A DNA stretch of 44,774 bases from Candidatus Veblenbacteria bacterium (GTDB lineage: Bacteria; Patescibacteriota; Patescibacteriia; Veblenbacterales; UBA10138): positions 1 to 44,774 of the forward strand of contig JAUYKG010000004.1 of the NCBI GenBank assembly GCA_030700105.1. Direction: 5' to 3'. The notes beneath the pieces are model-generated. The model searched no databases and had not been told where the DNA came from. It was given only the letters and a program-made list of their open reading frames with translations. The translations under genes and the position numbers were made by a program. Every line of letters starts with the position of its first letter. Positions within the stretch are counted from its first letter, which is position 1. This document shows positions 23,739-43,376 of the stretch, one piece after another.

Positions 23739-24686
23739 TTAAATATTGCTATCCAAGGCAGGGGACCGACGCAGGGCATCGAGGAGAGTGGCCTTGGCGA
23801 TGCGTGCCCCGGCGAGTACCTTATCAGCCCCACCGTAATAGATGAAGTAGTCTGCACCAAGCTCAACCAAACCACACGTAAATACGACGTTTGGTACCAC
23901 CCCCACGCGCTCGTAGACTTCACGCGGCTCAAGCAGTGGCTCAGCTAGCCGTGCTACCACACGACGAGGATCATGGGCATCCACCACCAGGGCGCCCAAC
24001 CGGTACACACCCTGACTGTCACGCGCATGATACATGACCAGCCAACCTAGCTCTGTAAGTACCGGCGGGGCACCAATGCCAACGCGATCGTTCTGCCAGC
24101 CTGAATGAGCTGGCTCAAGTATTCGTCCCTCTTCTTGCCAATGCTGCAAATCGGTCGACGACGCCAACACCACAGCTAAATCGCGGCGGTGAAAAATATA
24201 GTACCTACCGTTTATCTGCTCAGGGAACAGCGCAGCATTTTTGTCGTCTATTTCGTCAGAAAAAACCAAACCATGACGTACGAACGTTTTAAAATCAACT
24301 GTGGTTAAGCGAGCCACCCTCGTGCGCCACGGGGCGGTGTACGAAATTTTCTTCGAATGGGAGTAGAGGGAGGCAGCTGTGTAGATAACGTGGTAGGTAC
24401 CGTCTAACAATGTAATACGGGGGTCCTCACATCCACACCACTCATACGGGTCATTGTAATCCGGCTCAACGGTTGGTACTAATGTCCGTTCATCAATGGT
24501 CACGCCGTCGCGGCTAACTGCCAGCCCGAACCGCGACGCGCCATCCTTGCCCACCGCTCGATACAGCAGATGCACCTTACCTTGATGCTGAGTTACTCCG
24601 GCATTAAAAACAGCTCGACACTCCCACCAATTTGTGGTGGGCATGAGGAGTGGATTGGTCGGAAAACGTTCTAATTGCACTACCAT
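23739..24686 (-). CDS. GH130-family glycoside phosphorylase-like protein
   Basis: NPLLMPTTNWWECRAVFNAGVTQHQGKVHLLYRAVGKDG...EDPRITLLDGTYHVIYTA...YYGGADKVLAGARI. Confidence 0.85.
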   Translation of the reverse strand: MVVQLERFPTNPLLMPTTNWWECRAVFNAGVTQHQGKVHLLYRAVGKDGASRFGLAVSRDGVTIDERTLVPTVEPDYNDPYEWCGCEDPRITLLDGTYHVIYTAASLYSHSKKISYTAPWRTRVARLTTVDFKTFVRHGLVFSDEIDDKNAALFPEQINGRYYIFHRRDLAVVLASSTDLQHWQEEGRILEPAHSGWQNDRVGIGAPPVLTELGWLVMYHARDSQGVYRLGALVVDAHDPRRVVARLAEPLLEPREVYERVGVVPNVVFTCGLVELGADYFIYYGGADKVLAGARIAKATLLDALRRSPALDSNI

Positions 24687-26917
24687 AATTTACTACTTAT
24701 ATAGGTGAGTGCGGGGACACTTGCACTCTGCAACGAATAGAAAGCTAAATGGTGGCTCAAAACCGATTCAGCCCCTTGATTCTTGTTTCGACCCGAGGGC
24801 GTTAATCCGTCAAAAATACCACCTGATCGACTATCAATGAGCCTTTGGTGTAATATATTGTCTCCATCGTACCAGGCGAAGGCTTTTTCAGCTAGGCTAC
24901 GGTACTTTTCATCTTTCGTAACACGGTGCGCAGCTACGCAGGCTTCCACCACCGCATCAGCTTCCACTGGTTGCTGATCAAATATGGCCTTAAGTTTGCC
25001 ACGGAAATACCAACCATTACAGCCAATGAACGAGAAGCACCCTCGCTCTTGGTCGAAGAGCTCGTGCATTAGCCAATCTAAAGATTGCTGGCCTACGGCA
25101 CGCATATCACTATTATTACAAACGCGCGCGGCCGTTAAGAGAGCCTGCGGCAAGCGTGCACTGTCATAGGTAAGATAATTTTCAAACCACTGCCAATTAT
25201 TGTTAGCTACCGAGGTAAACATGGTAGTAAGCTTTTTAGCCATATCATCAACGATTGCCTTAAGGTTATGCCCTAAACCCGGCACCGCCACCTGATTTGC
25301 TTCCAACACACAGAGTCCAAGCAATGCATAACTCACTGTCCGGGGTGAACTCAGATTAAGCAAGTGTTGGTACATCTTGGTGAGTAGCTGAATGCCCCTC
25401 TTATATAGGAGCGGGCTAGGTCGGACAGCAACCAGGCAGCTTACTGCCCAAAAAGCTTTCCCCCACCAATCACCGGTACCCGGCTCCCCCTGCCAATCGC
25501 CGATGGCTGACCGATCATTGTACAAAAGTCCATTCTGCTCGGCTTGCAGAATGAATGTAAGGTAGCAGCGAACTAGAAAACGGTCCCCGCGACAGAGCGC
25601 TACAATGAGCGCTTTCGCGTTATCATCAACGGTATAGCCTTCGCTTTCCTGAGGAATTCTAAACGCACCGTGCTCAAGTATACCCCACCGGGTGGTTAAC
25701 GTTCGAACGTAATCGAGCGTAGGTGGAACAACGAATGAAATCGGAGAAGATGGAGGCTGCGCTAACACAGAGGTAAAGATCTCAAGGTAGTTAAGCGCCA
25801 CACGGTGCCAAGTCATAAGACGGCCCTGCGCGTACGCTCGTTGCTCAAGCAAATGCCTCTTCTCAGCCTGTCGCAAAAGTACGAGGAGTGCCTGGCTTAA
25901 GGCCGAGCTATTCCGGAAGGGCACCAAAATACCCCTGCCGCCTCGCAGCATTTCGCGCGCATAAAAATACGAAGTCGATATACAAACCTTACCAGCACCC
26001 ACTGCGTAGGCCAGTGAACCAGAGGCTGCCTGTTCAGGGTTTAAGTAGGGCGTAACGTAGTAATCACTGGCCTGAACATAGCGCACCAGCTCAGCTAGCG
26101 AGAGGTACCTATCAATAAACTGAACCGATGATTGCAGCCCGAGTTCTTGTACTAACCGTTCTAGTTTCGCACGGTAACGTTCCCCCTCCTCACGGCGTAC
26201 GTTGGGGTGGGTTTCACCAATTACCAAGTACAGAAAGTTCGGGAATTTTTCCACCACGGGAGGTAAAGCCGCAATGGCATATTCTATACCCTTAGATTCA
26301 CTTAACAGATTAATACTCGACATTACTATGTGCCCCTCAAGCTTAAGCTCTGGTTTTGCCACATCGGGAGATTGGCGCGGGAAATCTGGCACACCGTGGT
26401 GTATGACCGCCACCTTACTCGGGTCCACACCATACTCACGCCGCAAAAGATCCGCCGCCGCCCGCAGCATAACCACAACCGCACCGGCGCGCTGGCACAG
26501 GTAGTTCATAATTTCTCGCTGGTGCGTTGCAGGGTTAGATAGCACCGTGTGAAACACAACCACACACGGTTTTTTTAACTTTTCCAAAAATTTTACGACC
26601 AATTCACCGTCTTTCCCGCCCCATATGCCGAACTCGTGCTGCACGACGACCAAATCAACGTTGCTCCTGTTGAGGTAACGCAAAACACGGTCATAATCTG
26701 GCCACTCCTGCTGGCGAATACGGTACTTGACTTCCCATGGATACCCCAATTGCTCACCCTCGGAGTTATCCAGCGCAATTACCTCTGCCAGGTGTTCTGG
26801 ATTAAGCAGGTTAAGGGCGTTGGTTAGGTCCTTAGTGAAAGTTGCAATTCCACATTTGCGTGGGATGTATGTAGAAATGTAAACAACACGGGGACTTGTA
26901 AGTTTTACCCGAGCCAT
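24680..26917 (-). CDS. GT4 glycosyltransferase fused to (alpha/alpha) toroid glycosidase-like C-terminal domain
   Basis: YISTYIPRKCGIATFTKDLTNAL...VVQHEFGIWGG...; C-terminal half GYTVDDNAKALIVAL...LTYDSARLPQALLTAARV. Confidence 0.82.
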   Translation of the reverse strand: MARVKLTSPRVVYISTYIPRKCGIATFTKDLTNALNLLNPEHLAEVIALDNSEGEQLGYPWEVKYRIRQQEWPDYDRVLRYLNRSNVDLVVVQHEFGIWGGKDGELVVKFLEKLKKPCVVVFHTVLSNPATHQREIMNYLCQRAGAVVVMLRAAADLLRREYGVDPSKVAVIHHGVPDFPRQSPDVAKPELKLEGHIVMSSINLLSESKGIEYAIAALPPVVEKFPNFLYLVIGETHPNVRREEGERYRAKLERLVQELGLQSSVQFIDRYLSLAELVRYVQASDYYVTPYLNPEQAASGSLAYAVGAGKVCISTSYFYAREMLRGGRGILVPFRNSSALSQALLVLLRQAEKRHLLEQRAYAQGRLMTWHRVALNYLEIFTSVLAQPPSSPISFVVPPTLDYVRTLTTRWGILEHGAFRIPQESEGYTVDDNAKALIVALCRGDRFLVRCYLTFILQAEQNGLLYNDRSAIGDWQGEPGTGDWWGKAFWAVSCLVAVRPSPLLYKRGIQLLTKMYQHLLNLSSPRTVSYALLGLCVLEANQVAVPGLGHNLKAIVDDMAKKLTTMFTSVANNNWQWFENYLTYDSARLPQALLTAARVCNNSDMRAVGQQSLDWLMHELFDQERGCFSFIGCNGWYFRGKLKAIFDQQPVEADAVVEACVAAHRVTKDEKYRSLAEKAFAWYDGDNILHQRLIDSRSGGIFDGLTPSGRNKNQGAESVLSHHLAFYSLQSASVPALTYISSKLW

Positions 26918-26970
26918 GGAGAAAATGGTTTACTGCAAACGGTTACTAATGCCATTGGATAAGTATAACA

Positions 26971-26999
26971 AAAATCTCTCAATAAATCACTGAGGGATT
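26971..26999 (-). terminator. Hairpin terminator
   Basis: AATCTCTCA/TGAGGGATT with T tract on minus strand. Confidence 0.6.
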
Positions 27000-27001
27000 G
27001 T

Positions 27002-27040
27002 TGGCGGGCCTTGTGGAACGATGTTCGAACAATTGTTGAA
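27002..27040 (-). repeat. tRNA-3'-end-like repeat, copy A
   Basis: TGGCGGGCCTTGTGGAACGATGTTCGAACAATTGTTGAA (plus strand); 36/39 identical to copy C. Confidence 0.85.
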
Positions 27041-27049
27041 TTCTATAAC

Positions 27050-27622
27050 TTACGAAACTTTGATACCAAATTCTCTTAACCTACGTGTAAGTGTATCAAG
27101 TGGCAACGCTCTCTCAGCGCCAGACTCTCCCTCAAATCTCTCAAGAAATTCTTGGCCTAATCCTTCTGGTCCCCACCCAATAGACATAGCGGTGGGATCA
27201 ACTTGACTTAGGTATCTCTCCACTAAGTCTTCACTATACTTTTTAAAAATAAAACGTGAGTGATTAAGGTCAACTGTCTGCCTACCTAATGTATGGTGTG
27301 TAACTACTAGAGCTGTGTAAAAATCTATAGGTTTACCAGCCATAGCAAGAAGCCATTCTCTGGCTTGCTCACGTGAAGCCGGCTTGCCATACTTTTTACC
27401 TTCAAAAAAACTATTTGAATCAGCCGTTATCACTACGGCATCTGGGTACTGCGGCGCCAACACGGCTGCCTTACCCTTAGCTGTTGCAACAACGAGATCT
27501 TTGACATCTTCCGCTTTCGTCTCTTCCTCATTAAAATTTGAATGTACTACCCGAAAAGGTATTCCTAAAGATTCCATAACTCTAAAACGCAGCTTTGAAG
27601 AAGTGCCGAGAATTATATCCAT
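27050..27622 (-). CDS. Maf/Ham1-like nucleotide pyrophosphatase
   Basis: IILGTSSKLRFRVMESLGIPFRV...VVITADSNSFFEGKKYGKPASREQAREWL. Confidence 0.75.
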   Translation of the reverse strand: MDIILGTSSKLRFRVMESLGIPFRVVHSNFNEEETKAEDVKDLVVATAKGKAAVLAPQYPDAVVITADSNSFFEGKKYGKPASREQAREWLLAMAGKPIDFYTALVVTHHTLGRQTVDLNHSRFIFKKYSEDLVERYLSQVDPTAMSIGWGPEGLGQEFLERFEGESGAERALPLDTLTRRLREFGIKVS

Positions 27623-27639
27623 GATTTTAGTATACCAAA

Positions 27640-27661
27640 AACTGTCCGAAAATGGACAGTT
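27640..27661 (-). terminator. Hairpin terminator followed by TTTTTGGTATACT
   Basis: AACTGTCC/GGACAGTT. Confidence 0.7.
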
Positions 27662-27668
27662 TCAGATT

Positions 27669-27704
27669 CGGGTCTTATGGAACGATGTTCAAACAATATT
27701 AGAA
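27669..27704 (-). repeat. tRNA-3'-end-like repeat, copy B (diverged)
   Basis: CGGGTCTTATGGAACGATGTTCAAACAATATTAGAA, ~30/36 to copy A. Confidence 0.7.
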
Positions 27705-27734
27705 CACAATTTGGTTGAAGGTGGTGGAGGATGA

Positions 27735-28031
27735 TCAAATTCGCTTCACCAGTAATTGACCTCTAATTGCCTCGACCAAAAATTCCGCCGTAACCTTATA
27801 GGACTCTTGAAAATCAGCTGCTTGAATTACTTTTTTAAGCTGCTCTAACTTTACAATTAATTTATCTTTATCTTCAATTTGGTAGTTAGAAATAATATTA
27901 CTAATTTTATTTAACCTATCAACCACTTCATTATCATTTACTTCTTCCGCGGCTCTTATAATATTATCCAGTTCGTCTTCTAGATTATTAATTTTTTCTT
28001 CTTGAATTGGTATTTCGCTTTCATTAGTCAT
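27735..28031 (-). CDS. Small acidic helical hypothetical protein
   Basis: ORF; EEKINNLEDELDNIIRAAEEVNDNEVVDRLNKI. Confidence 0.55.
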   Translation of the reverse strand: MTNESEIPIQEEKINNLEDELDNIIRAAEEVNDNEVVDRLNKISNIISNYQIEDKDKLIVKLEQLKKVIQAADFQESYKVTAEFLVEAIRGQLLVKRI

Positions 28032-28081
28032 AATTTGGAAGCTTTAATAATTATTTACTAAGATCAATTATATACCCAAAA

Positions 28082-28100
28082 CCGCTCCTATGTGGAGCGG
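28082..28100 (-). terminator. Hairpin terminator
   Basis: CCGCTCC/GGAGCGG with TTTTGGG on minus strand. Confidence 0.7.
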
Positions 28101-28109
28101 CTAAAATGC

Positions 28110-28148
28110 TGGCGGGCCCTGTGGAACGACGCTCGAACAATTGTTGAA
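28110..28148 (-). repeat. tRNA-3'-end-like repeat, copy C
   Basis: TGGCGGGCCCTGTGGAACGACGCTCGAACAATTGTTGAA; flank TAAAATGCTGGCGGG matches the 3' flank of tRNA-Trp. Confidence 0.85.
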
Positions 28149-28218
28149 AGAAATTTTGCTAACTCTTGTAGAGGATGTTAGAACCATGATTATGGTGAAA
28201 TGTGTGACTCTAGTCTAA

Positions 28219-28854
28219 TTATTCCTCATCAAGCGGCTTGATCTCGTTTATGAATCGGAAATCTTCAGGAACGACACCCAACTTTGCAATCGGCCTCACG
28301 GCTGTTTCTGCCGCCCATTCGTCCACTAATTCTCCCTTATCATTAACGCCCTGCGCAAACGAGCTGTGGTCTAGAATGTAAACTGCGCCGCGTGTCCAGG
28401 GTTTTGCTTCAATCGCTTCTCGAGACATACGAAATTCATACTTGGCCTCCCCCGTTTCTGCATCGGCCTCATAACCACTTATAATCGCGCCGCGTATCTT
28501 AGTTCGGTCTCGAATGGCATAAAAAATGGGTAGCACAGAATCGGTTACCGCATACACAGCCTTTTTGTTTCCAAACTCCTTCGCGCCATCGTTCGTTTGT
28601 TGGGGTGCTAAAACCTCAAGGTTTTGATTTGAAGAACCGTGTAAGAGAAGGTGTTTTTCTTCAACCAAAAACTTTAGGAATTCTTCCTTAGGATAAGGAA
28701 GATTATAGTCAATAACAGCTATGGCTTCTTTGCTATGAGACTCGAAAAAATTCGAGTAGAGTTGGGCGAAATCGGCACGCCGCCTCACTTCCTCTTCTTG
28801 TCGTGCAGTTCCTTCCATACCCATGGCTTCTCTAGGATGCATAATAGCGTACAT
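28219..28854 (-). CDS. Hypothetical protein, possibly ADP-ribosyltransferase-like fold
   Basis: HLLLHGSSNQNLEVLAP...FGNKKAVYAVTDSVLPIFYAI resembles ART H-Y motif spacing (weak). Confidence 0.5.
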   Translation of the reverse strand: MYAIMHPREAMGMEGTARQEEEVRRRADFAQLYSNFFESHSKEAIAVIDYNLPYPKEEFLKFLVEEKHLLLHGSSNQNLEVLAPQQTNDGAKEFGNKKAVYAVTDSVLPIFYAIRDRTKIRGAIISGYEADAETGEAKYEFRMSREAIEAKPWTRGAVYILDHSSFAQGVNDKGELVDEWAAETAVRPIAKLGVVPEDFRFINEIKPLDEE

Positions 28855-28930
28855 CGTGATCTAAACTTACAGGCTTAGCCTAACAGAATAAGCTAGTCTT
28901 TTCTATCTTATTTGTAAAGGGGTATACCAA

Positions 28931-28952
28931 AAGCCGCTCAGGTGAGCGGCTT
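28931..28952 (-). terminator. Terminator after tRNA-Trp
   Basis: AAGCCGCTCA/TGAGCGGCTT followed by TTGG on minus strand. Confidence 0.75.
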
Positions 28953-28960
28953 GAAAATGC

Positions 28961-29034
28961 TGGCGGGGGCGGTAGGAATCGAACCCACGTTACTGGTTTT
29001 GGAGACCAGAGTCCTACCACTGAACGACGCCCCC
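28961..29034 (-). tRNA. tRNA-Trp(CCA)
   Basis: GGGGGCG/CGCCCCC acceptor, anticodon loop CTCCAAA, encoded CCA. Confidence 0.93.
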
Positions 29035-43250: not shown

Positions 43251-43261
43251 ATAATACATTA

Positions 43262-43376
43262 ATTATCTTCCCCGGGTAAACCTGGGGCTAGAGGGAGCAC
43301 CTTATCCGCCCAAGGCGAACAGGTTGCTGAAGCGCTCAAACGGGCTAGGTCCCTCGCGCCTACTCTTGATAATATC
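43262..43376 (-). promoter_or_regulatory. SAM-I (S-box) riboswitch aptamer upstream of metK
   Basis: Minus strand ATTATCAAGAG...GAGGGACCTAGCCC...GCTTCAGCAACC...AAGGTGCT...GGGGAAGATAAT matches S-box landmarks. Confidence 0.92.

Follow-up and report, generated by a model that had tools for sequence, protein, structure and literature searches.

The locus behind tRNA-Trp

The window, meaning the whole 44,774-nt stretch of DNA analysed here, is one contig (C24) of an 811-kb genome that is 96% complete (G000, family f1). On its minus strand, a tRNA-Trp gene is followed by an islet of three genes, and behind each gene a copy of the same repeat precedes a hairpin. In order of transcription, with a numbering of putative cassettes that anticipates the interpretation given below, the islet reads as follows.

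28961..29034, minus: tRNA-Trp (ARAGORN, Rfam); its 3' end is the proposed attB and array anchor
28931..28952, minus: terminator-like hairpin after tRNA-Trp, proposed right end of cassette 1 (from the sequence; the DNA fold shows a stem)
28219..28854, minus: gene of putative cassette 1, 211 aa, without known family
28168..28188, minus: further site GGTTCTAACATCCTCTAC, decayed, with which putative cassette 1 ends, just upstream of site C; it resembles the sites of G001 and G006
28107..28148, minus: site C (repeat C), left half TTCAACAATTGTTCGAGCGTCGTTCCACAGG and tRNA-Trp-like end CCCGCCAGCATTTT
28082..28101, minus: hairpin after site C, proposed right end of cassette 2, which copies the tRNA-Trp terminator arrangement (sequence, DNA fold)
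27735..28031, minus: gene of putative cassette 2, acidic protein of 98 aa, without known family
27663..27704, minus: site B (repeat B), the most diverged repeat
27640..27661, minus: hairpin after site B, then a -10-like TTGGTATACTAAA (sequence, DNA fold)
27050..27622, minus: gene of putative cassette 3, Maf-type nucleotide pyrophosphatase, 190 aa (PF02545, 2e-28)
26999..27040, minus: site A (repeat A), distal array end
26972..26999, minus: hairpin and TTGTTATACTT after site A
24680..26917, minus: GT4 glycosyltransferase, the first gene past the array, syntenic in G002 and G006

The three repeats are 42 nt long, C being 90% and B 71% identical to A, and a degenerate core pattern run over the window returns exactly these three, where shuffles expect 0. 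Between each copy and the stop codon of the minus-strand gene before it are 20–81 nt, and on the other side comes a hairpin; the hairpins were read from the sequence and were not listed by a simple terminator scan. Alignment, pattern search and coordinates thus bear out the original prediction, which had described repeats placed after each gene and before a hairpin, and the islet is indeed AT-richer than its surroundings, with a GC content of 0.34–0.45 against 0.50–0.58 outside. Its gene labels fared unevenly: the Maf assignment holds, whereas "ART-like" is unsupported because the 211-aa protein has no Pfam or NCBIfam match. Structure prediction for this protein is uninformative (mean pLDDT 38), the 98-aa protein has no significant family, and an Rfam search gives no match at the repeats.

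Within this genome, the repeat core occurs in the islet and in a diverged copy on contig C31. There, at about 500-1900 of locus L020, a second and decayed cassette pair lies behind an M50 peptidase gene and starts with a tRNA-Trp 3' fragment, TCGATTCCTACCGCCCCCGCCA; it is possible that this pair reflects insertion at a secondary, non-tRNA site. The module of hairpin and TTGTTATACTT recurs after the tRNA-Trp fragment on C31 and after a site in G006.

Variable content and recurring sites in relatives

All eight f1 genomes that we compared carry the block of tRNA-Thr, the rpmG region and tRNA-Trp, and what follows tRNA-Trp is different in each of the eight; none of the three islet genes lies behind tRNA-Trp in the family relatives. 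Gene content at this position is variable rather than fixed. The repeat itself does recur: it was found behind tRNA-Trp in G002, with one EamA transporter gene between, behind tRNA-Asp in G005, with one HicB-like gene between, and in further families, while in G001 and G006 the sites behind tRNA-Trp are variants, GGTTCTAACRTC with the end GCCCCTGCCA. Neither an excision circle nor two strains that differ by the presence of a given cassette turned up among the genomes compared.

We searched 384 genomes of the class with the pattern GTTCKAACRTCKTTCCAY, allowing at most one mismatch and making no use of tRNA positions, and obtained 39 core matches, spread over 14 genomes; the reversed pattern, used as control, gave 5. 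The matches cluster in G318 and G335 (f19), G344 (f6), G369 (f96) and G240 (f57), and reading of the loci revealed arrays of one- or two-gene units, mostly about 0.7–2.3 kb in size, in four families beyond f1. The sites are placed far from randomly: 38 of 41 are intergenic, compared with 24% of random positions, and a co-directional stop codon lies at most 150 nt before 24 of the 41, compared with 10% at random. A looser first pattern gave class matches with no tRNA nearby, and exact 19-mer matches in a collection of genome contigs, as well as matches in IMG/VR, showed no array and, in the stretches examined, no tRNA, and were taken as chance.

The cassette proteins are mostly unrelated to one another. 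Toxin–antitoxin pairs are among them, and the contents include HicA, HigB/Gp49 with an HTH partner, RHH with a RelE-like partner, HicB, DUF433/DUF5615, DUF3800, Ham1, Maf, a trypsin-like protein, a response regulator and EamA.

tRNA anchors and the anatomy of the site

Most arrays with a recognisable start begin at a tRNA 3' end, that of Trp in f1 and f6, of Asn in f57 and f19, and of Asp in f1. At loci that were found without any use of tRNA information, the anchors are Trp (G000, G002 and, both in f6, G344 and G322), Asp (G005) and Asn (G240, G318/G335), so that the repeats are tied to tRNA genes rather than unrelated to them. In G318 and G335, the anchor, which we read as tRNA-Asn and ARAGORN calls Thr, is interrupted, its 3' exon following a group I intron (L172 1202-1486 in G318, common to G335). 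The f96 sites have no anchor that we could find, and several f19 arrays reach contig ends.

Each site consists of a left half, GTTCKAACATCGTTCSAC with family-specific upstream bases (about 45–60 in f19), followed by a right part; the half-site sequence is GTTCGAACATCGTTCSAC and the invariant core is TTCGAACATCGT. In most arrays, the right part matches the anchor tRNA 3' end and flank of its own genome. Scored locally against that anchor, the right flank gives 133 in G322, 85, 74 and 29 in G240 and a maximum of 55 in f19; the 95% values of shuffles are 19–24. For repeat C, whose likeness, together with its flank, to the tRNA-Trp 3' end and terminator had been pointed out at the outset, the score is 52, where shuffles have a 95% value of 20. 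Compared with tRNA-Trp on their own, repeats A and B are not clearly above shuffles. The junction is seen most sharply in G322, where the match sets in exactly at CCCCTGCCA, within the acceptor 3' strand, and holds for 68 of 69 nt through the hairpin, and in the pair G318 and G335, whose tRNA is alike up to GGAG and is then followed by different cassettes.

This anatomy bears on a reading in which the repeats are signals at the RNA level, tRNA-like ends in the 3' UTRs of genes, and not recombination sites. Their position directly past stop codons and ahead of hairpins is what such signals would show, but the copy in G322 extends past the terminator, the core is found in accessory arrays, the anchoring at tRNAs is left unexplained, and repeats A and C have no outstanding or stable DNA fold of their own; we consider this reading very improbable.

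Some tRNA-Trp loci show further rearrangement. In G344 (L132 5740-6290), tRNA-Trp-like fragments carry hairpin insertions in their anticodon and T loops, and between one such fragment and the intact tRNA-Trp lies a GIY-YIG-like ORF; similar hairpins are found within duplicated tRNA-Trp ends in G002, G003 and G006.

A model for cassette insertion

On the whole, the islet is likely, in our view, to be a row of mobile cassettes of one gene each that takes the 3' end of tRNA-Trp as its anchor and is served by a recombinase acting in trans. Serial, site-specific insertion at a tRNA 3' end, with each unit bringing an attachment site, a terminator and a promoter, had been suggested for this locus from the start, and the relatives lend it support. 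A cassette would combine one or two genes with a right end, made up of the tRNA acceptor 3' end, a terminator and a promoter, and with the left half-site GTTCKAACATCGTTCSAC and its upstream bases. The recombinase would join the site of a circular form of the cassette to the tRNA 3' end, with the crossover presumably within the acceptor 3' strand. Because the cassette carries its own copy of the tRNA end, the tRNA would be kept intact and the distal junction would again be a complete site; both targets would be regenerated and the array could grow, while every gene would retain a promoter and a terminator. To judge from the anatomy, since the right part copies the tRNA end, integration should yield an attB-like tRNA end and an attP-like distal site, which would allow both repeated insertion beside the tRNA and excision.

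Candidate recombinases

The window contains no serine recombinase gene, and the genome as a whole encodes one tyrosine recombinase, an rpsO-linked Xer that is the only PF00589 gene, and one serine recombinase of 510 aa. Xer genes were discarded as the dedicated integrase on the grounds of their housekeeping synteny with rpsO or ftsQ, and tRNA-like matches behind an Xer gene proved to be ordinary tRNA-Arg. The enzymes that have to be considered are located as follows.

L129 1492-3024 (G000, contig C33), L119 1367-3019, L124 2598-4241, L126 9785-11440, L125 1889-3457: five large serine recombinases of f1
L198 4334-5164, L199 212-1033, L211 92-931: IntI-like tyrosine recombinases without the IntI insert

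Genomic context suggests that the cassette enzyme is, on balance, most likely a large serine recombinase; the count of serine recombinase genes covers part of the array-bearing genomes. We favour this class because of its placement at tRNA ends in f1, together with its links to cassette sites in f19 and a site in G004. First of all, the five f1 enzymes lie at tRNA-fMet in G000, His in G003, Asn and Leu in G004 and Ala in G007, and all five are antisense directly behind the tRNA, with a reading frame that ends inside it and a C-terminus encoded by the tRNA antisense strand (for example WLRGWDSNPRPIG); tRNA ends seem an uncommon target for serine recombinases. Second, in f19, G335 has a serine recombinase against a tRNA-Asn 3' fragment and a serine recombinase remnant (8e-15) that abuts a cassette site (contig C44, L169 1-350), and the right flank of a site in G318 equals the recombinase end over 19 nt with one mismatch. 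Third, in G004 a lone site-like sequence, with GAGCCA, lies on the same strand 17.7 kb downstream of the tRNA-Asn and its recombinase. The element at tRNA-fMet in G000 has no cassette-type site on its contig. The L169 remnant contains N- and C-terminal fragments in opposite orientation, as in an inverted or collapsed element.

Another reading takes the repeat for a coding remnant, in which the antisense peptide W-N-D-V-R-T with a short tail and a stop would be, for instance, a recombinase C-terminus cut by integration. The antisense peptide is open in most copies, but a full-length protein is absent from the 384 genomes, Pfam, PHROGs and phages give no match, stops fall at chance distances, silent and non-silent sites vary about equally in our own tally, and in G318 the recombinase frame differs from the W-N-D-V-R-T frame. 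The antisense reading, highly doubtful on these grounds, was dropped for want of a full-length protein and for the chance spacing of its stops.

A tyrosine recombinase acting in trans had also been anticipated, and one of IntI type does exist in three site-bearing genomes, even if the evidence leans to the large serine recombinase. The same arrays could on this account be relatives of integrons, with an IntI-like enzyme without the IntI insert and the tRNA end as attI. The enzyme (273–279 aa, 57–59% identical) is encoded in three families by genomes with arrays or sites, G005, G335 and G369; among solved proteins IntI4 is the closest to it (1.7e-43), the alignment having a gap at the extra residues of IntI, and it scores at or near the cut-off of NF040815, "tyrosine recombinase/integron integrase". 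On the other hand, it reaches 207–223 bits against the cut-off of 265 for the integron integrase model TIGR02249, a profile search did not find it in the site-bearing G000, G002, G318, G344, G240 and G322, its presence in 3 of 9 site-bearing genomes against 0 of 5 without a strict site is not significant, and it is never beside an array. The cassette site also lacks the attC consensus (RYYYAAC ... GTTRRRY), its core having no conserved GTTRRRY, which argues against a relative of integrons. We thus hold an IntI-like enzyme to be unlikely.

Relation to known systems

The arrays act like an integron array and like the accretion of tRNA-targeted CIMEs, but they do not pass as integrons and their units are smaller than known tRNA islands. 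With integron arrays and CALINs (attC arrays without integrase), they share tandem, mostly single-gene cassettes in one orientation, a conserved, species-typical site and toxin–antitoxin pairs. They differ in that the anchor is a tRNA 3' end instead of attI, that the site departs from attC, and that each cassette carries its own terminator and would restore the tRNA end; none of the arrays read has an intI gene beside it. Cassette-borne promoters are possible in integron arrays, and Patescibacteria are missing from the integron-bearing phyla listed in the same source (PMC8618304).

The likeness to tRNA-targeted islands and CIMEs, tandem elements lacking their own integrase, lies in insertion at the tRNA 3' end, in accretion, in a direct distal repeat of the tRNA tail (G322, G240 and repeat C) and in variable content at one site, as seen behind tRNA-Trp across f1. 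Such elements insert at tRNA 3' ends, repeat the tRNA tail distally, may have their recombination genes in trans and build up in tandem. The present units, by contrast, are single genes with terminator and promoter, and their left half-site is conserved across families and different tRNAs. Tandem islands at one tRNA are common, and serine recombinase elements occupy tRNA ends in these genomes; the genes might accordingly have arrived in full-size tRNA-targeted islands that have since decayed to single genes between att remnants. Site, terminator and promoter closely enclose intact genes in several families, in units mostly of 0.7–2.3 kb, which makes this quite improbable, because decay would not produce such regular units.

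Tycheposons of marine bacteria are likewise anchored at tRNAs and have a partial tRNA at their far end. They resemble the arrays in both respects, but they are larger and carry their own tyrosine recombinase. PMC10872708 deals with them. Elements of large serine recombinases are alike in the likely enzyme and in attB/attP recombination. Most of those known target protein genes, and their attL and attR are unlike attB and attP; here, on the other hand, attL would resemble attB and attR would resemble attP, the right halves being equal. We put forward, tentatively, that these arrays could be a serine-recombinase "integron", a tRNA-docked capture platform in which every insertion would leave the tRNA (attB) as well as the cassette site (attP) restored, build up arrays and be reversible without a directionality factor.

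We found no description of such arrays in the open literature that was searched, and their novelty is provisional on that scope. If the interpretation is right, a gene-capture system of their own, docked on tRNA genes and comparable to integrons, would account for part of the variable gene content in these bacteria with very small genomes, whose size (811 kb here) makes membership of the Candidate Phyla Radiation probable. The site would serve as a sequence tag by which cassettes could be collected from metagenomes, and possibly as a tool for recombination at tRNA ends, and the array model makes a testable claim on how tRNA genes survive repeated insertion.

Elsewhere in the window, a SAM riboswitch scoring just over the gathering threshold lies at 43260-43375 on the minus strand.
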